Shown: one piece after another, positions 6,583 through 48,065 of the stretch
Numbering within the stretch: position 1 is the stretch's first letter
Layout: each line of letters starts with the position of its first letter
NCBI RefSeq assembly: GCF_035474595.1
Contig: NZ_DATIND010000044.1
Location: forward strand, 62,001 to 126,000
Direction: 5' to 3'
DNA length: 64,000 nt
From: Longimicrobium sp.
GTDB lineage: Bacteria; Gemmatimonadota; Gemmatimonadetes; Longimicrobiales; Longimicrobiaceae
Program-made: the position numbers and the translations under genes
Notes under the pieces: generated by a model
What the model was told of the DNA's origin: nothing
Databases searched by the model: none
The model's input: the letters and a program-made list of their open reading frames with translations, nothing else

Positions 6583-7401
6583 TCACGGCGCGGGTTTGCG
6601 GACCACGAAGTGGAGATGGTCGGCCGCGTCGCGGTACTGCGGCATCTCGCTGGTCTCGGCCGCGAAGGCGAGCACGTTCGCGTACGCCTCCGCATCGTCC
6701 GCGGCCAGCGCGGCGAGCTGCGGCGCCATGCCGCCGCAGAAGCCCTCGGCGCCGGCGTAGGTGGCCACCTCGAAGCCGGCGGCGCGGAGCTCGCCGGCCG
6801 CGGCGGGCGGGGTGCTCCAGTGCGTGGCGGTGAAGGCGCGCAGCTCCCGGGCGGTGTACGAGCGCGGCTCCATCAGCGCGCGCGGGAAGGCGGCGTCGCG
6901 GTACCAGCGCGGGAAGTCGTTGAGCCCGGTGCGCAGCAGCCCCCACGAGTTCAGGTACGCGGCGATGGCCACGCCGCCCGGCCGCAGCACGCGCCGCAGC
7001 TCGGCCAGGGCCTCCATCCGCGCGTCTCCGTCGGCAAGATGGTACATCGGCCCCAGGAAGAGCGCCGCGTCGCACGACGCGGCGGCGAAGGTGCCGAGGT
7101 CGCACGCGTCGGCGGCGTGGAAGCCCTCCGCGCGCAGGCCCGCGTCGTCGAAGGCGCGGCGGGCGCGCTCCAGCAGGGCGGGGGAGAGGTCGGCCAGCGT
7201 CACGCGGAAGCCGCGGCGCGCCAGCTCCAGCGCGTACCGCCCCGGCCCCGAGCCGATGTCCAGCACCTCGCCGCGCGGCGGGAACCACCGGTCCACCAGC
7301 CGCAGCGTGCTGGCCATCTCCACGCGGCAGAGCGGAAGGTCCAGCCGCTCCCACTCGCTCTCCACGTTCCGCTCGTAGAACTCCCGCACCTCCGAGCTCA
7401 T
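6583..7401 (-). CDS. Class I SAM-dependent methyltransferase
   Basis: A 272-residue methyltransferase. Motif I DIGSGPGRYALELA lies at about residues 48-61, followed by the acidic loop LADLSP that would hold the SAM ribose. The post-II region (DAALFLGPMYHL) and the ELRRVLRPGG segment typical of the Methyltransf_11/25 group are also present. The C-terminal half is a variable substrate domain. It is cytosolic with unknown acceptor. It stands alone on the minus strand with a 149-bp gap to the rhodanese gene. Confidence 0.83.
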   Translation of the reverse strand: MSSEVREFYERNVESEWERLDLPLCRVEMASTLRLVDRWFPPRGEVLDIGSGPGRYALELARRGFRVTLADLSPALLERARRAFDDAGLRAEGFHAADACDLGTFAAASCDAALFLGPMYHLADGDARMEALAELRRVLRPGGVAIAAYLNSWGLLRTGLNDFPRWYRDAAFPRALMEPRSYTARELRAFTATHWSTPPAAAGELRAAGFEVATYAGAEGFCGGMAPQLAALAADDAEAYANVLAFAAETSEMPQYRDAADHLHFVVRKPAP

Positions 7402-7771: not shown

Positions 7772-8410
7772 GTGCAGACCCTCATCGATTTCGTTCTCCA
7801 CCTCGACAAGCATCTTGCCGAGCTGACCCGCACGTATGGCGGGTGGGCGTACGGCATCCTCTCGCTGATCCTGTTCTGCGAGACCGGGCTGGTGGTCACC
7901 CCTTTCCTTCCCGGCGACTCGCTCCTCTTCGCGGCGGGCGCGCTGGCGGCGGCCGGCGGCGGGCTGAACGTCTTCTACCTCTGGCCCTGCCTGCTGGTCG
8001 CCGTGTTCCTGGGCGACAACGTGAACTACTGGGTGGGGTTCCGCCTGGGACGCCGCGTATTCCGCCCGGACGCGCGGGTGCTGAAGACGAAGTACCTGGA
8101 GCGCACGGAAGCGTTCTACGCGAAGTACGGCGGCCGCGCGGTGGTTCTCGCGCGCTTCGTGCCCATCGTGCGCACCTACGCGCCGTTCGTGGCCGGCGCG
8201 TCGCGGATGCCGTACGGACGCTTCCTGGGGTTCAGCCTGGCCGGATCGTTCGTGTGGATCACCCTTTTCCTCTTCGTCGGGTACTTCTTCGGGAACATCC
8301 CGGCGGTGAAGGAGAACTTCATGGTGGTGATCCTGGCCATCATCCTGATCTCCGTCATCCCCGCGGTCGTGGAGATCGTCCGCGCCCGCCGTGCCGAGCG
8401 CCCCGCCTGA
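7772..8410 (+). CDS. DedA-family membrane protein
   Basis: A 212-residue polytopic protein of the DedA/SNARE-associated family. The family signatures are visible: ETGLVVTPFLPGDSLLF (about 32-48) and the GRxVVLARFVPIVRTYAPFVAGASRMPYGRF block (about 122-152) with the conserved R and P. Bacterial DedA proteins are proton-driven membrane proteins linked to lipid (undecaprenyl phosphate) recycling and envelope homeostasis. GTG at 7772 gives the normal family length. The stop overlaps the next gene (TGATG), so the LysM protein is probably co-translated. Confidence 0.88.
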   Translation: MQTLIDFVLHLDKHLAELTRTYGGWAYGILSLILFCETGLVVTPFLPGDSLLFAAGALAAAGGGLNVFYLWPCLLVAVFLGDNVNYWVGFRLGRRVFRPDARVLKTKYLERTEAFYAKYGGRAVVLARFVPIVRTYAPFVAGASRMPYGRFLGFSLAGSFVWITLFLFVGYFFGNIPAVKENFMVVILAIILISVIPAVVEIVRARRAERPA

Positions 8411-37007: not shown

Positions 37008-37664
37008 TCAGCCGCCCACGCGCAGCACCTGGTCGCCTGCGACCACGAACACCCGGTCCCCCGGCTCGACGGCCACGTCCGCCGTGCCCGTGAACGCGCC
37101 GAACGCGGGAAGGACGCCCACGCGCGCGCCGAAGTGGAAGCACGGCAGGCGCTCGCGCTGGCGTCCCGCCCCCCGCAGCGTCACCGACGGGTGCACGTGC
37201 CCGGCGAGGACGTACCCCGCCTCCGCCTCGAAGGGATGGTGGGCGAGGAGGAAGGGCAGCGCCGCGCAGGGCGCCTCGCAGCAGTCGATGCCCAGCTCGC
37301 CGGGCGGGTCGCCGGCGTGGCGGTCGTGGTTGCCGCGGATCAGCGTCACCGGCAGCGCTGCGTGGCGGTCGCGCCACGCGCGGACGGTGTCGAGGGTCGC
37401 CGGCTGCTTCGACGAGCGTGCGTGGAAGAGGTCGCCCAGGATCACCAGCTTCGCGGCGCCGGTGCGCTCCAGCGCCCGCGTCAGCCGCTCCAGCCCCTCC
37501 GCGGTGGTGCCACCGGGAACGGGGACGCCTGCCGCGCGGAACGCCGCCGCCTTCCCCCAGTGCGGGTCCGCCACCAGCAGCTCCCCCGTCAACGGACGAA
37601 AGAGCGCGCGCTCCGCCAGCAGGAGCACGCGCTCGCCCGCCACCGTGGTTTCCAGGTCTCCCAC
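37008..37664 (-). CDS. pdeM: PdeM-type metallophosphoesterase (DNA-ligase-associated)
   Basis: A 218-residue calcineurin-like phosphoesterase with all metal motifs: LVADPHWGKAAAFRAAG, VILGDLFHAR, LIRGNHDRHAGD, LLAHHP and LAGHVHPSV. The pattern, with DPHxGK and PGGTTAEGLERL, is that of the DNA-ligase-associated phosphoesterase (PdeM). This enzyme works with an Lhr-type helicase, an ATP-dependent ligase and an exonuclease in a DNA damage response. GTG at 37664 follows GAGGACGG. It is the last gene of the kinase/phosphatase operon, 11 bp after kinase 2; the helicase partner lies at 43575-46181. Confidence 0.82.
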   Translation of the reverse strand: MGDLETTVAGERVLLLAERALFRPLTGELLVADPHWGKAAAFRAAGVPVPGGTTAEGLERLTRALERTGAAKLVILGDLFHARSSKQPATLDTVRAWRDRHAALPVTLIRGNHDRHAGDPPGELGIDCCEAPCAALPFLLAHHPFEAEAGYVLAGHVHPSVTLRGAGRQRERLPCFHFGARVGVLPAFGAFTGTADVAVEPGDRVFVVAGDQVLRVGG

Positions 37665-37675
37665 CGCCGCCGTCC

Positions 37676-39667
37676 TCAGGGTTCGATCACCATCCGCTGC
37701 GCCGCCCACACGCTCACCTTCCCCGTTTCGTCTTCCGCGGGAAGGTAGCGCAGGTAGGGCACGGTGGCCGCCGCCGCGTCCATCGCCGCGTGGCTGGTGG
37801 ACGAGATCACCTGCCATCCCCCCTCCGGAACGCGGCCGTTCTCCCCGATCCGCACCCACAGCACCACGGTGTCGGCCGCGGATGACACGGGCGGCGGCGT
37901 GGCGCTCCCGGCCCGGACGAAGGCGGCCAGCGCCTGCGCCACCGTGGCGTCGTCGCTCAGCTGCGGCGGCCGCGGCACGTCGGCCATCTCGCGCAGGCGC
38001 GTCCCGCCGTCGTCCGCGGGCATGGGCGCGTCCCCGTCGTCGGGAAGCGGGGGGATGGCGCCGTAGCGCGCCTGCGCGACGGATTCCGAGCGCACGTCGG
38101 GAAGGAGGTACGCCTCCCAGCTCCGTCCCATCGGCGGGCCCTGGAGCTCGGCCTCGGTGGCGGCGTCGGGTGACGGCTCGCCCGCCGCGGGCTCGTCCGC
38201 CGGCACCACCACCTGCGTGTAGTCGGGCGAGGCCGGCTTTGCCCGCGAGCCGCCGTGCGGGAGCGAGAGGATCGTGGCCGCCAGGATCGCCATCATCAGC
38301 CCCGTCAACGCCGTGGGCCACTGGAACTGGCGGAAGCGCGCGTCGGTGAGCGCGTAGGCCGACCACAGCAGCCCCAGGAGCCCCAGTACCGTCACCGTCC
38401 CGCCGAACAGCAGCATGACCAGCGCGGTGGGAATGATGACGGCCGGGTTCAGCAGCCCGCGCGGCCCGAACACGGCCGGGAGCGGCGCGGCGGGCGGAAC
38501 GAACGGCGCCGGCGCCTGGCGCACGCCGAACGGCGAAACGACCGGGGCGGAGGGAGATGGCGATGCCGCGCGCGCCGCCGCCGCCGGGCGCGGAAGCCGC
38601 CGCGCGCGCACCGGCGGCGCCGCGGGGATGCCGATGGGGAAGGGGTCGCGCCCGCCCAGCAGCCGCGCGCGCTCGCACCACGGGCACCCCTCCGGCCCCG
38701 CGGCATGGCGGTGCAGCGGGTTCGCCGCGCACTGCGCCAGCCGCGCCTCGGCCGCCTCGAGCGCGTCGCGCCACTCCGCGGCGGACGGGCGCGCCGCCGG
38801 GTCCGCGTGCCCGTCCACGAACGCGCGCAGGAACAGCCCGCGAATCTCCGCGTCCAGCGTCTCGAAGCGCGGGGAAAGGCGCGGGGGATGGCAGTCGTCG
38901 TCGTCCCGCGCGTGCGGGAAGCGCCCGTCGCGGATGCGGTCCTCCACCGGCGCCGCGTCGGCCCCCGGCTCCATCCGCGCGGCGAAGGGGTGCGTCCCCT
39001 CCATCAGCAGGAGGAAGAGGACGACGGCCAGCCCGAAGCGGTCGTGCTCCGGCGCGCGGTCCACCTCGCCGAAGCTCACTCCCTGCAGCTCGGGCGGGGT
39101 GAACTCCGGCTTCCCCACGCGCGAGCGGAAGACGGCGCCGTCCGGATCGCGCACCTGGAACGAGTCCGCGTCCACCAGCGTGACCGCCGCGTCGTACGGG
39201 GCCACCAGGATGTTCGACTCGTTCACGTCGCCGACCACGTACCCGGCGGCGTGCAGCGCGTCGAACGCCGCGGCCAGGTTGCGCCCGGCGCGGACCAGCA
39301 GGCCGAAGTGGAAACCGGGCGCCTGGGCGCGGCGGGTGACCGGGTTGTAGAACTCGAAGACGCGCGGCCCCTCGGCGAACGGCATCACGAAGCCGGCGAA
39401 GGCGCGGCCGCCCAGCAGCAGGTCCGCCGGCCAGGCGATCGCCGTCCCCCGCGGCATGGCGGGCGGATTGGCCAGCATCAGCCCCAGCTTGCGCGCGCGC
39501 TCGATGGCCGGGTCGTGGTAGACCTTGGCCACCAGCGAGCGGTCGTGCGGAAGATGGTAGACGACCGCCTCGCCCCCGGCGCCGATCTCCAGCGCGGGGT
39601 CCAGCACCAGCTGCTCCAGCGTGGAGCGGCGGCGGAAGAGGAGGAGCGGCGGGGCCACGTCGGTCAT
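37676..39667 (-). CDS. YegI-like protein kinase with TM and TonB-C-like domain (kinase 2)
   Basis: A 663-residue membrane kinase. The kinase fold spans about residues 20-300: Gly loop GAGGEAVVYHL, lysine K48 (LVAKVYHD), catalytic loop VVGDVNESN (D147, N152) in place of HRD, and DAD (166-168) in place of DFG, as in YegI-like kinases. A zinc-ribbon-like CxANPLHRHAAGPEGCPWC follows at about 325. Hydrophobic segments lie at about 415-470. The end (about 600-663, VVLWVRIGENGRVPEGGWQV ... VWAAQRMVIEP) matches the TonB C-terminal fold. ATG overlaps the stop of kinase 1. Probably it signals across the membrane. Confidence 0.78.
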   Translation of the reverse strand: MTDVAPPLLLFRRRSTLEQLVLDPALEIGAGGEAVVYHLPHDRSLVAKVYHDPAIERARKLGLMLANPPAMPRGTAIAWPADLLLGGRAFAGFVMPFAEGPRVFEFYNPVTRRAQAPGFHFGLLVRAGRNLAAAFDALHAAGYVVGDVNESNILVAPYDAAVTLVDADSFQVRDPDGAVFRSRVGKPEFTPPELQGVSFGEVDRAPEHDRFGLAVVLFLLLMEGTHPFAARMEPGADAAPVEDRIRDGRFPHARDDDDCHPPRLSPRFETLDAEIRGLFLRAFVDGHADPAARPSAAEWRDALEAAEARLAQCAANPLHRHAAGPEGCPWCERARLLGGRDPFPIGIPAAPPVRARRLPRPAAAARAASPSPSAPVVSPFGVRQAPAPFVPPAAPLPAVFGPRGLLNPAVIIPTALVMLLFGGTVTVLGLLGLLWSAYALTDARFRQFQWPTALTGLMMAILAATILSLPHGGSRAKPASPDYTQVVVPADEPAAGEPSPDAATEAELQGPPMGRSWEAYLLPDVRSESVAQARYGAIPPLPDDGDAPMPADDGGTRLREMADVPRPPQLSDDATVAQALAAFVRAGSATPPPVSSAADTVVLWVRIGENGRVPEGGWQVISSTSHAAMDAAAATVPYLRYLPAEDETGKVSVWAAQRMVIEP

Positions 39668-41556
39668 GGGGCGAAGCGGATGGTGGTTTCCACCCACGCC
39701 GCGATCGTCCGCCCGCCCGACACGGCGGGGTCGAACCGCATCTCCGCCACCACGTCGCCCGCGGGGCCGGCGAGCTCGGAAGCGCCCGCATCGATGATGC
39801 TGAGGGTGCCCACGTCGGGCGACCCGTCGTCGCGCACCAGGAAGCGCACCCGCACGTCGGCCGCGATCCCCGCGTCGCGCAGCACGGCGGGGTAGCGGCG
39901 GGCGACCATGGCCGAGACCGCGTCGCGGTTCAGCAGGCGGGGCGCTTCCGTCGTGACGGCGTCCAGGTCCGGCACCGTTACCGCGCCCACGCCGCTCCCG
40001 TCCTGCATCGCCGGGTAGTCGATGGGGGTGACGGGGACGTCCAGGTCGTCGCGGGCGAAGGCGCCGGAGAGCGCGCCGCCGCCCACCACCGCCCAGGCGA
40101 TCATGAGGATGACGGCCCAGACGACCGTGGCCCCGCGCAGCCGCACGCCGCCGCTGAACACGCGGCGGAGCGCCAGGAAGAAGATCATCAGCCCCGCCAT
40201 GCGCACGCCGCCGGTGGCGCCGAACAGGCAGGTGAGCGCGGCGGGCGCCATCCACACCAGCGGGTTGCCCATCGCCGCGGGCCCGAACGCCGGCTGCGCC
40301 CACGCGGGAAGCGTGGCGTACGCGCGCTGCATTCCCATGCGCGCGGCGCGCACCACCAGCGGCGGCTGCGCGGGAACGGCGGGCGCGGCGGGCGCGAACG
40401 GCGCCGCGGGCGGGTGGGGCGCGTACGGCTGCGCGTGCGCAAGCTGCGCGGGGCGCGGGCGCGGCGCCGGCCGCGGCGTGTCGTGCGCGCGGGCCAGGTC
40501 GACCGTGGCGGGGAAGGGGTCGCGCCCCTGCAGCAGCCGCGCGCGGTGGCACCAGGGGCAGAAGTCGATGTGCGGCCCGAAGCGGTGGCGCGGGTTGGCC
40601 CGGCAGGTCACCAGCCGCGCCTCGGCCGTCTCCAGCGCGGCCAGCCACTCCGCCGGGGACGGGCGCTGCCCCGCGTCGGCGTGCGCGGCCACGAAGCAGC
40701 GCATGAACAGCACGCGGACGGCGGGGTCCAGCGACCAGAACGGCGGCGCCAGCCGCGGCGGGCGGCACTCGTCGTCGGGCCGCGCGTGGGGGAACAGCCC
40801 GCGCGAGATGCGCTCCTCCACCGGCGGGATCTCGCCCCCGTCGCCCAGGCGGCTGGCGTACGGGTGCGTTCCCTCCATCAGCAGGAGGAAGAGGAGGACG
40901 GACAGTCCGAAGCGGTCGTGCTCGGGCGTGCGGTCCACGTCGGCGAAGCGCGCGCCCTGCAGCTCCGGCGGGGTGAACTCCGCCTTCCCCACGCCCGAGC
41001 GGTGCACGATGCGGCCGAGCGGGTCGCGCACCTGGAACGAGTCGGCGTCCACCAGCGTGACCGCCGCGTCGCGCGGCGAGACCAGGATGTTGCTCTCGTT
41101 CACGTCGCCGACCACGTAGCCGGCGGCGTGCAGCGCGTCGAACGCCGCCGCGAGATTTCGTCCGGCGCGGTGCAGCCAGGCGTAGTCGAAGAGCGGCGCG
41201 GTGCGGCGGCGCGAGATGGGGTTGTAGAACTCGAAGATGCGCGGCCCCTCGGCGCGCGGCATCAGGAAGCCGGCGAAGCGGCCGCCGTTCAGGTCGGTCA
41301 GCAGGTCCGTGGGCCAGGCGATCGACACGCCGGGCGGCAGCGCGGGCGGCACGTCGATCATCCGCGCCACCTTGCGGGCGCGCGCCAGGGTGGGGTCGTG
41401 GTACAGCTTGGCCACGAGGGACGCGTCGCCCGGCAGGCCCAGCACGCGCGCCTCGCCCCCCACGCCGATCTCCAGCGCGGGGTCCAGCGCCAGCGGCGCG
41501 CCGTCGGAGCGGCGGCGCAGCATCAGCGCGTGCGGGGCGAGGGCCAGGTCAGCCAT
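39664..41556 (-). CDS. YegI-like protein kinase with TM and TonB-C-like domain (kinase 1)
   Basis: A 630-residue paralogue of the next kinase with the same order. The kinase domain has K50, D151, N156 and DAD at 170-172; then comes the CRANPRHRFGPHIDFCPWC zinc motif, a Pro/Ala-rich linker, and hydrophobic segments (about 430-505). The TonB-C-like tail is seen in VRVRFLVRDDGSPDVGTL and WVETTIRFAP. The insert regions (EFYNPISRR, LLLMEGTHPYASRL) match its paralogue, so it arose by tandem duplication. It overlaps the PP2C gene by 8 bp and kinase 2 by 4 bp. Confidence 0.78.
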   Translation of the reverse strand: MADLALAPHALMLRRRSDGAPLALDPALEIGVGGEARVLGLPGDASLVAKLYHDPTLARARKVARMIDVPPALPPGVSIAWPTDLLTDLNGGRFAGFLMPRAEGPRIFEFYNPISRRRTAPLFDYAWLHRAGRNLAAAFDALHAAGYVVGDVNESNILVSPRDAAVTLVDADSFQVRDPLGRIVHRSGVGKAEFTPPELQGARFADVDRTPEHDRFGLSVLLFLLLMEGTHPYASRLGDGGEIPPVEERISRGLFPHARPDDECRPPRLAPPFWSLDPAVRVLFMRCFVAAHADAGQRPSPAEWLAALETAEARLVTCRANPRHRFGPHIDFCPWCHRARLLQGRDPFPATVDLARAHDTPRPAPRPRPAQLAHAQPYAPHPPAAPFAPAAPAVPAQPPLVVRAARMGMQRAYATLPAWAQPAFGPAAMGNPLVWMAPAALTCLFGATGGVRMAGLMIFFLALRRVFSGGVRLRGATVVWAVILMIAWAVVGGGALSGAFARDDLDVPVTPIDYPAMQDGSGVGAVTVPDLDAVTTEAPRLLNRDAVSAMVARRYPAVLRDAGIAADVRVRFLVRDDGSPDVGTLSIIDAGASELAGPAGDVVAEMRFDPAVSGGRTIAAWVETTIRFAP

Positions 41557-42322
41557 GGTCGCGCGTCACCAGGACCAGGGTCAGGTCGTCGTCCGAGCGC
41601 GCGGCCACCCGCGGCCCGGCCAGGAACTCCGCCAACTGCTCCTCGCCCGTGCGCGCGTCGTGCTGCCCGGCCGCGAAGGCGAAGAGCGGGGCGAAGAAGG
41701 GCTCGTGCGGCGTGCGCGCGGGGTGCTTCAGCGCCAGCCCCTGCAGGCCGTCGGTGAAGATGGCCAGGTGGAGGGCGCTGCCCCGCCACGTGGCCCGCTG
41801 CGCCGCGTCCACCGCGCCGGCGGAGGTCAGGAAGACGGTCTCGTTGGCGAACTCGCCGCTGGTGGGCGCGGTCAGCGCGCGCATTCCCTCGCCGTCGGCG
41901 GCGATCACCGCGCCGTCGCCCACCTGCGCCACCGCGACCGCATCCCCCGTCACCACGCAGGCGATGAGGGTGGTGGAGAGCTCGCGGATCTCCACCCCGC
42001 GCGCCCTAGCCTCGGCCTCGACCGCGACGAGGGCGGCGCCCATCGCGTGGTCCAGCGCGGTGGTCCAGTCCCCCTCCGCAACGGCCGGGGAAGAGGAGAC
42101 GAGCGAGTCGACCGCCGCCCGCGCCGCCGCCCGCGCCCCCGCCTCGGCGTGCGCCGCCGACCCCGCGCCGTCGGCCACGGCGATGGCCACCGCGCCGCCG
42201 GGAAGGCGGCGCCAGGCGTGCGCGTCCTGGCAGGGAAGGTCGGTGCGCGCGTGGCTGGTGCCCCGCACCGAGGCGCCCAGCACGCGCCACGCGGCCGCCG
42301 GCGCGGCGACGGACGGGCTCAC
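41549..42322 (-). CDS. PP2C-type serine/threonine phosphatase (YegK-like)
   Basis: A 257-residue PPM phosphatase. Metal-binding acidic residues occur in CQDAHAWRR, AIAVADGAGSAAHAEAGA, VAQVGDGAVIA and RSDDDLTLVLV. The DGAGS motif in place of DGMGG is typical of the PP2C partner of YegL/TerY-type vWA proteins. It would reverse the action of the adjacent kinases, perhaps on the vWA protein. GTG at 42322 overlaps the vWA stop (GTGA). Its stop overlaps kinase 1. Confidence 0.82.
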   Translation of the reverse strand: MSPSVAAPAAAWRVLGASVRGTSHARTDLPCQDAHAWRRLPGGAVAIAVADGAGSAAHAEAGARAAARAAVDSLVSSSPAVAEGDWTTALDHAMGAALVAVEAEARARGVEIRELSTTLIACVVTGDAVAVAQVGDGAVIAADGEGMRALTAPTSGEFANETVFLTSAGAVDAAQRATWRGSALHLAIFTDGLQGLALKHPARTPHEPFFAPLFAFAAGQHDARTGEEQLAEFLAGPRVAARSDDDLTLVLVTRDHG

Positions 42323-42993
42323 AGCTCGGCCCACCCGGTGGGCGCCAGCTTGATGGTCTCGTCGGGCCGCGAGTGCGCCACCGACTGCATGCTGCGCGAC
42401 AGCCACACGAACATCTCGCGGAAGTCCAGCCCCTTCAGCCGCAGCGGCTGGCGCACGGCGATCCTGGCCAGCGCCTCCATGTTGGCGTTCTCGACTCCCA
42501 CGGCGAAGAAGGCCACCTGCTTCTTCGTTTCGGCCTCGCGCAGGCGCTGCGTGGCGCGCTCCACGGCCTCGGGGGGCTCGCCCTGCGGCTCGCCGTCGGT
42601 CACCAGGAAGATCCAGGGGCGGTAGTAGGCCACGTCGTAGGCGCGGTAGCGCTGCTTGCGCTCTTCCACCATCTCCAGCGCCTTCTCGATGGCCGCGCCG
42701 ATGTGCGTCATCCCCTCGGCGTTCAGGAAGGGGATGTCGAAGCGGTCGGGGCTCACGAAGTCCTGCACCACGCGGATGCGGTTGTCGAACGCGACCACGG
42801 CCACCTCCACCCGGCGCGCGGCCAGCGGGTCCACGGCCAGGTCGAAGCGGAAGGCCTCGAGGCCGGCGAGCATGGCGTCCAGCGGGGCGCCCTGCATGGA
42901 GCCGGACGTATCGAGCAGGAGCACGCACGGGCAGCGCGGCTCGGGGTTCTCGGCGAACTCGACGGCGTCTTCCAGCTTCGCGAGCAGCGACAT
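42319..42993 (-). CDS. vWA-domain protein (TerY/YegL-like)
   Basis: A 224-residue single von Willebrand A domain. The MIDAS metal site is complete: LLLDTSGSMQGAPL, the threonine in EGMTHIGAAI, and LVTDGEPQGEP. The pattern of DAVEFAENPEPRCPC at the N-terminus is that of YegL/TerY proteins, which form triads with a kinase and a PP2C. First gene of the operon; ATG at 42993 is 10 bp after GGAGG. It likely acts as a metal-dependent scaffold whose state is set by phosphorylation. Confidence 0.85.
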   Translation of the reverse strand: MSLLAKLEDAVEFAENPEPRCPCVLLLDTSGSMQGAPLDAMLAGLEAFRFDLAVDPLAARRVEVAVVAFDNRIRVVQDFVSPDRFDIPFLNAEGMTHIGAAIEKALEMVEERKQRYRAYDVAYYRPWIFLVTDGEPQGEPPEAVERATQRLREAETKKQVAFFAVGVENANMEALARIAVRQPLRLKGLDFREMFVWLSRSMQSVAHSRPDETIKLAPTGWAEL

Positions 42994-43574
42994 AGGAAAG
43001 GGACCTCCATGTCCCGGTGGTGGGGCGCGGCGGACCCGGCGGGGCGGCGCGCGCCGGGCCGTCGAATTTCGCCCGAATCCGTTGAAAACACAAGCGTTTC
43101 CGCGAGGCGGCCGCCAGCCTCGCATCGCCATCTCCCGACGGCGCGGCGGCCGGATGTTCGGGCCGATGCCGCCAATCGTGCAAAACCCTCACCGCACCCG
43201 GCGCGGACACATCACCGCGACTTTAGGATGCATCCTGCCCGCCTGGCTGGCCCCGTCCCCCGGCCCCTCCGCCCGCTCCGCGGGGGAGGGAGAGCTCATC
43301 GCGGAAGAGGCTTTGGCTCGTCGCCCGGATACGTGGCGGCAGTCCCGCAGGGACTTCGTGCCGTTGTTGCTGGCGAATTCCATTCGCCTGACCGGGCCGG
43401 CGCGGGTCTACGGCTCTGCAATACGAGCCGAGCCGGTTCCGGGTTGCGAGCTGCTCCTCGATCGTCCTCGGTGAGTTCCCGGAGGATACCTTGGCCGGGA
43501 GATGAACGTTCGGAGGGGCGACATTCTGAACGTTCGAACGGCGATGTGAACGCGGATGCGGGAGATGGGGCGAT
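42994..43574. other. Spacer with repeat elements between vWA and helicase genes
   Basis: At 43225-43310 it holds a GATGCATCCTGCCCG...CCGCGGGGGAGGGAGAGCTC-type repeat, shared with 46455-46530 beyond the helicase gene. At 43341-43388 there is a plus-oriented double-hairpin element (AGTCCC/GGGACT and GGCGAAT/ATTCGCC). A pair of GAACGTTCG words lies near 43504 and 43529. No gene is seen. Confidence 0.65.
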
Positions 43575-46181
43575 CTACTTCTTCTTCGGCCGCTTCGTCG
43601 TCGTCGGCCCGCTGCCGCCCGGGCGCACGCGCTGCGCGGGCGGCTTCTTCCTGATGTCGCCGCGGCCGCCGGTGTCGCCCTCGTCGGCGTAGCGCTCCAG
43701 GGCCACCTGCATGCGCCGCACGCGGTCGGCGATGGACTCGCTGGTAACGGCCTCGCGGGTGCGGTCCACCAGCAGCGGAAAGGCGAGCGGCGGCGTGCGC
43801 GCGGGGTCGGTGATCACCACGCGGCTCTCGGCCAGGCGCTCCAGCGTGCGCCCCAGCCGGCTGCTTTCCAGCTGCCGCTCCAGCACCTCGCGGTGGGCCT
43901 GGCTCACGAGCAGGTTGCCGGGGTCGTAGCGGGTGAACACGTCGAAGAACAGCCCGCTGCTGGCCTGGATCTGCCGCGTGCTCTTGTTGGCGCCGGGGAA
44001 GCCCTGGAACACCAGCCCGGCCACGCGCGCGATCTCGCGGAACTGCCGCCGCGCCATCTCCGTCGCATTGAGCGACGCGGGCACGTCGTCGAACAGGTTC
44101 TCGGGGCGCAGCAGCCCGGCGGCCAGCGCGTCTTCCAGCGGCGCGGGGTCGGGCGACAGCAGCTCGATCCCGTAGTCGTTGGCCGCCATGGTAAAGGAGA
44201 TGGGCTTCAGGCGCGAGATGCGGTACGCCAGCAGTGCCGCCAGTCCTTCGTGGACAAGACGGCCCTCGAAGGGGAAGAAGAAGAGGTGGTGCCCCTCGCG
44301 CGTCTTCACCCGCTCGATCAGCAGCTCGTCGGCGTCGGGGATGTGCGACCAGCGCGCCTGCACGTCCAGGATCGCGCGCACCGCCTCCATCTCCGGCCCG
44401 CGGAAGCGTCCGTGCGCCGCCTCTTCCAGCCGCCGCCGCAGCGCCGCCGCCAGCTCCGTCGACAGCGGCATCCGGCTCCCCATCCAGCGCGGGATGTAGG
44501 CGCCCTTCGCGGGGGCGCGGCGCACCCACGCCTTCATGTCGCGCACGCGCACGAACTCCAGCGGCTTCCCCGAGAAGACGAAGCGGTCCCCGGGCTTCAG
44601 CCGCGCGATGAAGCTCTCCTCCACCGTCCCCAGCCGCGCGCCGCGCAGATACTGCACGGTGATGGCGGCGTCGCTCACGATGGTCCCGATCGCCATCCGG
44701 TGGCGCTTGGCGACCTGCCGGTTCTCGACCGTGTAGAGGCCTTCGCGCTCGACCACCCGCTGGAACTCGGGATACGCCTGCAGCGCGTCGCCGCCGCGGG
44801 TCACGAAGTCCATCACCCAGTCCCACTCGTCGTCCAGCAGCCCGGCGTAGGCGCGGGTGGTGCGCACCTCGGCCAGCAGCTCGTCGCGCCGGAAGCCGCC
44901 GCCGATGGCGATGGTCACCACGTGCTGCGCGAGCAGGTCGAGCGGCCGCTCGACCGGGAGACGGCTCTCCACCGCCGCCGCCTCCACCCCGTCGCGCGCG
45001 GCGGCCACCTCGATCAGCTCCAGCGAGTGCGTGGGGACGCAGGTGACGCGGCTCTCCACCCCGGGCCGGTGGCCGCTGCGCCCCGCGCGCTGCAGCAGCC
45101 GCGCGACGCCCTTGGGGCTCCCCACCTGCAGCACGCGGTCGACGGGGGAGAAGTCGACGCCCAGGTCCAGCGACGACGTGGCGACGACGCAGCGGAGGCG
45201 GCCGGAGCGCAGGCCGGCCTCCACGAAGTCGCGCGTCTTCCGGTCCAGCGAGCCGTGGTGGAGGGCGATCTCGCCGGCCCATTCGGGGCGGGCGGCGAGG
45301 ATCGCCTGGAACCAGATCTCCGTCTGCGAGCGGGTGTTGGTGAAGACGATGGCGCTCTGCGCGGCGTCGAGGACGTCGAGCAGCTGCGGGAGCATCTGCG
45401 TCCCCAGATGGCCGGCCCAGGGGAAGCGCTCGATCTCCGGCGGGATGAGGGAATCGACGACCACCGTCTTGGGGACGAAGCCGCGGACGATGCGCGACGC
45501 GCCCGTGCGCGGTCCCGCGCCGAGCAGCGTCTCCAGCGCCTCGGGGAGGTTGCCGATGGTGGCCGACAATCCCCACGTGCGCAGATCCGGGCGCCAGTGG
45601 CGGAGGCGCGCCAGGTCCAGCTCCGTCTGCACGCCGCGCTTGGTGCCCATCAGCTCGTGCCACTCGTCCACGATCACCGCGCGCAGGTCGGCGAACAGCG
45701 ATTGGGCATCGGGCTGGGAGAGGAGGAGCGACAGGCTCTCCGGCGTGGTGATGAGCGCGGTGGGCAGGCGCGTGCGCTGGCGCGCGCGGACCCTGGCGGG
45801 GGTGTCGCCGGTGCGCGGCTCCAGCGTCCAGGGGATGCGCAGCTCGCGCAGGGGGAGACGGAGCGCCTCTTCGGTGTCGGCGGCGAGCGCGCGGAGCGGG
45901 GTGATCCACAGCACGCGCAGCGGCGGCGCGGGGCGGATGTCGGGCCCGCCGGCGCTCTCGCGGACCCACTCCAGCAGCGGCCCCATCCACGCGGCGTACG
46001 TCTTCCCCGTGCCCGTGGCGGCGTGGATCAGCCCGCTTTCGCCGGCCAGGTACGCCTCCCACACCTCGCGCTGGAACGCGAACGGCTCCCACCCGCGCCC
46101 CGCGAACCACTCCGCCGCCGGCGCGAGCGGATCGGCCGGCGGAGGTGCGGTGCGGCGGGCGGCGGCGGCGGAGCGGGGCAC
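43575..46181 (-). CDS. Lhr-type DEXH helicase, DNA-ligase-associated
   Basis: An 868-residue superfamily 2 helicase. Q-motif region EPFAFQREVWEAYL, Walker A ATGTGKT (about 55-61), DEWH at about 170 (VIVDEWHEL), SATIGN, then the second RecA domain with TNTRSQTEIW, SSLDLGVDFSPVD and QRAGRSGHR. The C-terminal Lhr winged-helix/beta region follows, and the very end is basic and Lys-rich (TTTKRPKKK). The core matches the ligase-associated DEXH helicase family that pairs with PdeM. GTG 46181 after GAGGAACG is taken as the start. The ligase and exonuclease partners are not in the window. Confidence 0.88.
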   Translation of the reverse strand: MPRSAAAARRTAPPPADPLAPAAEWFAGRGWEPFAFQREVWEAYLAGESGLIHAATGTGKTYAAWMGPLLEWVRESAGGPDIRPAPPLRVLWITPLRALAADTEEALRLPLRELRIPWTLEPRTGDTPARVRARQRTRLPTALITTPESLSLLLSQPDAQSLFADLRAVIVDEWHELMGTKRGVQTELDLARLRHWRPDLRTWGLSATIGNLPEALETLLGAGPRTGASRIVRGFVPKTVVVDSLIPPEIERFPWAGHLGTQMLPQLLDVLDAAQSAIVFTNTRSQTEIWFQAILAARPEWAGEIALHHGSLDRKTRDFVEAGLRSGRLRCVVATSSLDLGVDFSPVDRVLQVGSPKGVARLLQRAGRSGHRPGVESRVTCVPTHSLELIEVAAARDGVEAAAVESRLPVERPLDLLAQHVVTIAIGGGFRRDELLAEVRTTRAYAGLLDDEWDWVMDFVTRGGDALQAYPEFQRVVEREGLYTVENRQVAKRHRMAIGTIVSDAAITVQYLRGARLGTVEESFIARLKPGDRFVFSGKPLEFVRVRDMKAWVRRAPAKGAYIPRWMGSRMPLSTELAAALRRRLEEAAHGRFRGPEMEAVRAILDVQARWSHIPDADELLIERVKTREGHHLFFFPFEGRLVHEGLAALLAYRISRLKPISFTMAANDYGIELLSPDPAPLEDALAAGLLRPENLFDDVPASLNATEMARRQFREIARVAGLVFQGFPGANKSTRQIQASSGLFFDVFTRYDPGNLLVSQAHREVLERQLESSRLGRTLERLAESRVVITDPARTPPLAFPLLVDRTREAVTSESIADRVRRMQVALERYADEGDTGGRGDIRKKPPAQRVRPGGSGPTTTKRPKKK

Positions 46182-46764: not shown

Positions 46765-47514
46765 TCAGTCCACGTCGAGGATGCGGACCAGCACGGCGGT
46801 GATGTTGTCGCGGCCGCCGCGCTCGTTGGCGCCCACGATGAGCGCCGCGACCATGTCGGCCAGCTCGCCGGGGCGGTCCAGGACGCGGCGGATCATGCGG
46901 TCGGTGAGCATCCCCGTGAGGCCGTCGCTGGCCAGCAGCACGATGTCGCCGGGGAGGAGCGTGCCGGCGTAGACGTCCGGCTGGTCCAGCGAGTCCGCGC
47001 CCAGCGCGCGGGTCAGCACGTGCGACAGGTGGTGGCGCCGCGCCCCGCGCTCGGTGATGCGGCCGGCCTCGACCTCGCGCTGCACCCAGGTGTGGTCGCG
47101 GGTGACCTGCTCCAGCTCGCCGTGGCGCAGCACGTAGCCCCGGCTGTCGCCGATGTGGCCCAGCCGGAAGGTGCCGTCGTCGCACAGCACCAGCGCGGTC
47201 ATGGTGGTGCCCATCCCCCTGGTCTCGGGCTTGATGGCCGAGTAGTTGACGATGGACATGTGCGCGTTGTGGAAGCTCTGGCGCATGGCCTCTTCCAGCA
47301 CGTCGGTGCGCAGCCCGCCGTCCACCCCCTGCCGGAGCGCCGACCCCACCGACTCGGTGGCGATGGCGCTGGCGATCTCGCCCGCGGCATGGCCGCCCAT
47401 CCCGTCGGCCACCAGGAACACCCCGCGCGGCGCGTCGATCAGGAACGAGTCCTCGTTGTGCGGCCGCACGCGCCCCACGTCGGTGGCGCCGGCCGCCTCC
47501 CAGCTCACCCTCAC
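46765..47514 (-). CDS. PP2C-type serine/threonine phosphatase (PstP/Stp-like)
   Basis: A 249-residue PPM phosphatase with the canonical motifs: VRPHNEDSFLID, FLVADGMGGHAAGEIASAIA, MGTTMTALVL, GHIGDSRGYVLR, LLASDGLTGMLTD and GGRDNITAVLV. Unlike the YegK-like neighbour it has DGMGGH, so it is the housekeeping Stp-type enzyme that dephosphorylates Hanks-type kinase targets. GTG 47514 overlaps the stop of the FHA gene (GTGA). Confidence 0.9.
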   Translation of the reverse strand: MRVSWEAAGATDVGRVRPHNEDSFLIDAPRGVFLVADGMGGHAAGEIASAIATESVGSALRQGVDGGLRTDVLEEAMRQSFHNAHMSIVNYSAIKPETRGMGTTMTALVLCDDGTFRLGHIGDSRGYVLRHGELEQVTRDHTWVQREVEAGRITERGARRHHLSHVLTRALGADSLDQPDVYAGTLLPGDIVLLASDGLTGMLTDRMIRRVLDRPGELADMVAALIVGANERGGRDNITAVLVRILDVD

Positions 47515-48065
47515 GGCCGGCCGGCCCGCGCGGCGGGCACGTCGGTGGGGGCGGGAAGCTGGCGGGGCACCGGCGCCGGCTGGTTCATCTGCACGATGGC
47601 GTACGCCAGCAGCGCCAGCAGGATCACGACGAGCAGCGCCAGCCAGAGCGGGAAGCGGAAGCCGCGCCGCTCCTCCTTCAGCGTGACCTCCTTCGCGGGC
47701 GGCACGTACGCCGCGCGCGCCGCCGCCAGGTCCGCCGACTCGACCTCGCGGAACTGCAGCTTCACCCCGCCGAAGCGCACGGCCGCGCCGTACGGCAGCG
47801 GCGTGGGCACGTTGGGGGCGAGCTTCACCCCCTCGATGGCGGTGCCGTTGGTGGAGTCCAGGTCGGTGATGCGCCACGCGCCCAGGTCGAACTCCAGCCG
47901 GGCGTGCTGCACGCTCACCGAGTCGTCGTCGATCACCACGTCGGCGCCGGCGCCGCGGCCCACGGTCACAACGGGCGCGGGCACGGGGATCTGCTCGCCG
48001 TAGCGCGGCCCCGCGGCAACGCCGAAGGTGGCGAGCGGGCCGGCCTGCGGGAGGTTGGTGGCCAT
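47511..48065 (-). CDS. FHA-domain membrane protein
   Basis: A 184-residue protein with an FHA phosphothreonine-binding domain at about 25-100 (VTVGRGAGADVVIDDDSVSV, then QHARLEF and DSTNGTAIEG). One membrane segment lies near the C-terminus (FPLWLALLVVILLALLAYAI) with a short Pro-rich tail. It would dock phosphorylated partners at the membrane; the coupled PP2C would remove the mark. ATG at 48065. Confidence 0.87.
   Translation of the reverse strand: MATNLPQAGPLATFGVAAGPRYGEQIPVPAPVVTVGRGAGADVVIDDDSVSVQHARLEFDLGAWRITDLDSTNGTAIEGVKLAPNVPTPLPYGAAVRFGGVKLQFREVESADLAAARAAYVPPAKEVTLKEERRGFRFPLWLALLVVILLALLAYAIVQMNQPAPVPRQLPAPTDVPAARAGRP

Follow-up and report, generated by a model that had tools for sequence, protein, structure and literature searches.

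TerY-P triads are widespread, and we know of no case in which either their input or their output has been established. The locus described here raises both questions at once: what might such a triad sense when its kinase continues into a membrane region and a further C-terminal domain, and what might it act on when it lies within a set of DNA repair genes? We found it in a 64,000-nucleotide stretch of DNA (here, the window) from Longimicrobium sp., a member of a genus of soil bacteria. A link between triads of this type and systems for DNA restriction and processing has been described (PMC11090510).

Gene order at the locus

From 46.1 down to 37.0 kb, the minus strand of the window encodes, in order, lhr, a 581-bp gap, and the vWA, PP2C, kinase 1, kinase 2, and pdeM genes (Table 1). 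The overlaps between successive members of the four-gene triad string measure 4, 8, and 4 nt; 11 nt separate the stop codon of kinase 2 from the GTG of pdeM. An earlier note on this DNA had delimited five packed open reading frames from vWA to pdeM; these proved real and correctly described, but the same-strand lhr gene upstream of them had been missed. Its assignment of the vWA, PP2C, and kinase genes to a triad is borne out by the Pfam matches (PF00092 and PF13672), the kinase fold, and a zinc-ribbon-type motif (see below). Both flanking genes match ligase-associated families of NCBIfam above the respective cut-offs (TIGR04121, 1131 bits with a cut-off of 850, for Lhr; TIGR04123, 220 bits with a cut-off of 150, for PdeM), and thus the triad is flanked on both sides by members of a single known repair set. 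A metallophosphoesterase gene neighbors lhr in archaea too (PMC8301817).

Just upstream of lhr, at 46765 to 48065 on the minus strand, are genes for an FHA-domain-like membrane protein and a second, Stp1-like PP2C (both named by eye). The same pair occurs in G257, the only other genome with two kinases; the flanks fetched for the relatives with a single kinase did not show it. The kinase duplication, which had been regarded as new, is present but limited to these two genomes.

Table 1. Features of the locus, listed in the direction of transcription (positions are those of the window)
Feature	Position	Strand	Evidence and remarks
Lhr, ligase-associated DEXH-box DNA helicase	43575..46064	-	TIGR04121, WH_Lhr, and DEAD_assoc; start uncertain, 46064-46181
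Lhr-vWA intergenic region, 581 bp	42994..43574	-	presumed promoter region for the triad
TerY-like vWA protein, 224 aa, MIDAS-type DTSGS...T...D	42319..42993	-	PF00092, 1.8e-14
PP2C-type phosphatase, GTG start	41549..42322	-	PF13672, 7e-49; 4-nt overlap with the vWA stop
Kinase 1	39664..41556	-	kinase domain 1-315, Zn-ribbon-like 318-336, three predicted TM segments ~433-501, TonB_C 553-629
Kinase 2	37676..39667	-	layout as in kinase 1; divergent TonB_C tail ~565-663
PdeM, ligase-associated metallophosphoesterase, GTG start	37008..37664	-	TIGR04123, 220 bits

Kinase domains, membrane region, and TonB_C tails

The two kinases are 67% identical over the kinase domain. The departures from HRD to GDV and from DFG to DAD that had been read from the letters were recovered here as the variant motifs GDVNESN and DADSFQ. 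Since every relative compared retains the catalytic residues Lys50, Asp151, Asn156, and Asp170 (kinase 1 numbering), both proteins are variant and probably active kinases, and a pseudokinase reading of the altered motifs was ruled out. Beyond the kinase domain, a C-x5-H...CPWC motif at positions 318 to 336 of kinase 1, whose residues C318, H324, C333, and C336 are invariant in 15 kinases, is consistent with a zinc ribbon; a Pro/Ala-rich linker connects it to the membrane region. The AlphaFold model of kinase 1 shows a confident kinase fold, and a Foldseek search with this model returned only kinases in its top rows, with nothing matching the tail.

Hydropathy analysis predicted three transmembrane (TM) segments for kinase 1, as for most kinases of the orthologous loci, and two for kinase 2 and for kinase 1 of G257; one of the kinase 2 calls spans 40 residues and, on hydropathy, could be two helices. 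The linker that follows the TM segments is longer in kinase 2 than in kinase 1. The loop between TM2 and TM3 is basic (e.g., RRVFSGGVRLR), and this loop, the three TM segments, and a cytoplasmic kinase domain would together place the C terminus in the periplasm. We infer this topology from hydropathy, as the AlphaFold model of kinase 1 merges TM1 and TM2 into one long helix of moderate confidence. The membrane segments had been considered a new feature of both kinases; they are indeed predicted but are usual for such kinases.

The tail of kinase 1 matches the Pfam TonB_C domain (PF03544; 31.3 bits, cut-off of 24.6), as do its orthologues in G257, G256, G258, G259, and G252 (40 to 53 bits) and, above the Pfam cut-off, the distant kinase of G245. 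No Pfam match was obtained with the tail of kinase 2, and its G257 orthologue scores 23.5 bits, just under the cut-off. When an HMM trained on the tails of the other kinases was used, kinase 2, its G257 orthologue, and the G260 kinase scored 28 to 48 bits; the kinase 2 tail itself scored 28 bits, with the best of 4000 shuffles reaching 12, and hhalign gave it 97.5%. A profile of ten tails recovered solved TonB C-terminal domains (6i97, 3.5e-8; 6fip, 4.2e-8), and the first 16 rows of that search were all TonB. The TonB-C-like tail proposed earlier for both kinases is upheld by these matches, by way of PF03544 for kinase 1 and the tail HMM for kinase 2. The kinase 1 tail is predicted as helix-helix-strand-strand-strand-strand, with an AlphaFold pLDDT of only 54 to 62, and the kinase 2 tail model has a pLDDT of only 42.

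Although the domain is homologous to that of TonB energy transducers, its setting differs: in place of an N-terminal single TM segment, a long periplasmic linker, and ExbBD partners, here the domain comes after a kinase and three TM segments and lies ~40 to 100 aa from TM3, and no ExbB or ExbD was seen adjoining the kinases. Energy transduction is not implied by the tail. In this phylum, the tail HMM also picks up numerous small proteins with TonB_C, which are a plausible source of the kinase tail domain. In the genome that encodes the kinases, TonB_C proteins form a cluster (L148; G000:C26:36000-46000), and two of these proteins have tandem domains. The G252 kinase carries two tandem TonB_C domains (L147).

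The tail evolves far faster than the remainder of the locus. Tails are 70 to 78% identical where the kinase domains are 93 to 96% and Lhr and vWA 96 to 98% identical; between G258 and G259 (L145 and L146), Lhr, vWA, and PdeM share 95 to 98% and the kinase domain 96% identity, whereas the last 120 kinase codons share only 72 to 73% identity, with synonymous divergence increasing roughly threefold at the TM3/tail border; and between this genome and G257, vWA is 95% and the kinase 1 tail 34% identical, all of these divergence figures being descriptive, because the stretches compared are small and the NG86 method is crude. The synonymous jump at the border is compatible with segment exchange or diversification of the tail.

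With known TerY-P triads the locus shares three adjacent, co-directional genes, a kinase followed by the C...H...CPWC motif, and a position beside a DNA-processing gene set; it differs in the extension of the kinase by three predicted TM segments and TonB_C, in the doubling of the kinase (here and in G257), and in its host, a ligase-associated repair cluster. The YegL-YegK-YegI set of Escherichia coli (COG4248) likewise combines vWA, PP2C, and a kinase with variant catalytic motifs and a post-kinase membrane segment. YegI-type kinases end in a helix-hairpin-helix (HHH) region; Pfam searches found no HHH match in either window kinase, and thus the YegI-type C-terminal region is absent here. The longer HHH-type layout, from which the window kinases differ, is seen in G135 and G245, the kinase of the latter having a weak HHH_5 match and also ending in TonB_C.

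Outside the phylum, the best-matching loci are mostly cyanobacterial, with others from Poribacteria, Armatimonadota, and Verrucomicrobiota, and commonly have vWA and PP2C upstream of the kinase. After the TM region, their C termini resemble, by eye, TPR, WD40, FGE-sulfatase-type, or multi-TM regions, and no TonB_C was found by the tail HMM among the 80 homologous loci that had been obtained from named genomes. A shared cytoplasmic kinase with a switchable extracytoplasmic module seems to be the general plan, of which TonB_C would be the version of this phylum; that the domains following the TM region differ between lineages of the family is as expected of sensor modules.

The ligase-associated repair cluster with and without the triad

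The order Lhr-vWA-PP2C-kinase(-kinase)-PdeM recurs in all six genus loci that could be read, with distances from the last kinase stop codon to the GTG of pdeM of +11 (this genome), +11 (G257), -4 (G260), and +2 nt (G256, G258, and G259 each). The possibility that the arrangement is unique to this genome, against which the earlier note had suggested a gene-order check, is thereby ruled out. The Lhr-vWA gap varies from ~0.3 to 1.2 kb among the relatives.

In five further genomes (G032, G180, G224, G249, and G253), PdeM comes immediately after Lhr, with no triad in between. G032 and G180 belong to the same genus, and G224 and G249 have the full order exonuclease-ligase-Lhr-PdeM, to be compared with exonuclease-ligase-Lhr-triad-PdeM in G256, G258, and G259. 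Because Lhr and PdeM are adjacent where the triad is missing, and exonuclease-ligase-Lhr is found on either side of this comparison, the gene orders point clearly to insertion of the triad into an existing ligase-associated repair cluster, with pdeM taken into the triad gene string. The Lhr-PdeM gaps of G255, G251, and G208 contain no triad remnants. The four-gene cluster is present in most genomes of the family; in the present genome, two of its members, Lhr and PdeM (by NCBIfam), are split by the triad (~5.3 kb of genes plus the 0.6-kb gap), and the ligase and exonuclease lie on contig C47 rather than on C44, unlinked to Lhr/PdeM. The account of pdeM as a new partner, recruited as an output at the end of the operon, does not stand, since pdeM is the established companion of Lhr, from which the triad separates it. 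The proposed linkage of pdeM to the triad is conserved but restricted to the genus.

Among the 21 genomes of the family searched, the kinase was found in 7 of the 10 from the genus and in G252 (an eighth genome, with only a 32%-identical match, was not counted separately), and across the phylum it was recovered at E < 1e-20 in only 9 of 395 genomes. Outside that count is G261, seen in the family search; its Lhr-vWA-kinase genes and its PdeM gene fall on different contigs, and the sequence upstream of the latter yielded no kinase tail. The vWA proteins are 72 to 95% identical across the genus and 57 to 65% identical in other phyla. A single origin of the insertion was not rejected in an rpoB test (p-AU, 0.353), and the Lhr tree asks for two changes, weakly. 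Two independent insertions were therefore set aside, and the insertion probably happened once.

Lhr/PdeM adjoins the triad in 1 of the 80 homologous loci from named genomes (L051, of the same genus). Near its contig end, L051 has a repeat between vWA and the kinase and again after the kinase (6800-6990 and 8060-8192), with PP2C missing; this probably reflects either misassembly or a mobile repeat. The triads of G252, G135, and G245 also lie away from Lhr/PdeM. That of G245 (L046, 4010-11312), whose kinase has a hairpin, a coiled coil, an HHH region, a TM segment, and the TonB_C tail, adjoins hsdM/hsdS-like genes, and that of G135 (L045, 7569-13063) adjoins an ATPase with AriA/GajA/OLD-like matches. 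In G252 (L147, 5840-8248 and 2519-4171), a Ro60/TROVE-like protein, assigned by eye, is encoded downstream of the kinase on the same strand, and searches for Lhr, for PdeM, and for the ligase and exonuclease of the ligase-associated set gave no match above the cut-off.

Candidate signal and output

The reading we favor, to which we give nearly even chances, is that a membrane TerY-P-type triad with a periplasmic TonB_C domain was inserted between lhr and pdeM, PdeM being its likeliest output. The triad would consist of a vWA adaptor, a serine/threonine kinase fused to a zinc ribbon, and a PP2C that serves as the reset phosphatase, the kinase spanning the inner membrane and carrying the TonB_C domain on its periplasmic side. 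It would have entered the exonuclease-ligase-Lhr-PdeM cluster in the ancestor of part of the genus. The tail may bind some variable ligand in the periplasm or a component of the envelope, and binding would alter kinase activity via the TM helices. Relaying and resetting the phosphorylation would fall to the vWA protein and PP2C, and co-expression with the switch would extend to PdeM and perhaps to Lhr. The fuller version, in which a signal in the periplasm is sensed by the kinase through its rapidly diversifying TonB_C domain and reversible phosphorylation then governs a dedicated DNA repair nuclease and helicase, we regard as unlikely, if still plausible as a route from envelope state to DNA repair such as the earlier note had proposed.

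The main rival is inheritance of a bystander position: a self-contained membrane signaling triad would have landed once between lhr and pdeM and been passed on, neither gene being its target. We take this to be a real possibility, somewhat short of even. A single insertion would make the position one event, which could be chance, and one inherited insertion would look identical; the rpoB result fits this, as does the retention of Lhr-PdeM without the triad in G032 and G180. The kinase family elsewhere also speaks against functional coupling, for it does not lie beside Lhr/PdeM in G252, G135, G245, or 79 of the 80 homologous loci, and no Lhr or PdeM was found near the kinase in any of those loci from outside the phylum. 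However, the arrangement has persisted while Lhr diverged to ~78% identity, and the kinase-pdeM junction stays within -4 to +11 nt in six of six loci although the Lhr-vWA gap varies severalfold. This tight gene coupling, kept across the genus, supports pdeM as the output, and we put functional coupling of the triad to PdeM at about one half. A role in anti-phage or genome defense, with the periplasmic tail sensing infection or envelope damage and the kinase unleashing nucleases (here, PdeM), would suit the tail divergence and the hsdM/hsdS-like and AriA/GajA-like neighbors of the G245 and G135 triads. We consider it improbable: PADLOC gave only weak generic kinase matches to defense-system models, no defense genes were identified directly beside the locus, and Lhr and PdeM belong to a repair cluster common to most of the family.

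The triad, the TonB_C domain, and the ligase-associated cluster are each already known; of a kinase-TonB_C fusion in a triad, and of the insertion of a triad into the repair cluster, we found no description in the open-licence literature searched. In the inserted triad, the input domain can be recognized and looks to be extracytoplasmic; as the candidate output, PdeM/Lhr comes from a repair family with described biochemistry. One locus thus makes testable both the signal that a triad senses and its target, and the empty sites in relatives of the same genus offer a natural, ready comparison. The findings further suggest a bacterial kinase family with interchangeable extracytoplasmic modules (TonB_C, TPR, WD40, and FGE-type). 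If the fuller version of the favored reading is true, the insertion of a TerY-P triad into a ligase-associated repair cluster would have built a direct pathway from the envelope to genome maintenance.
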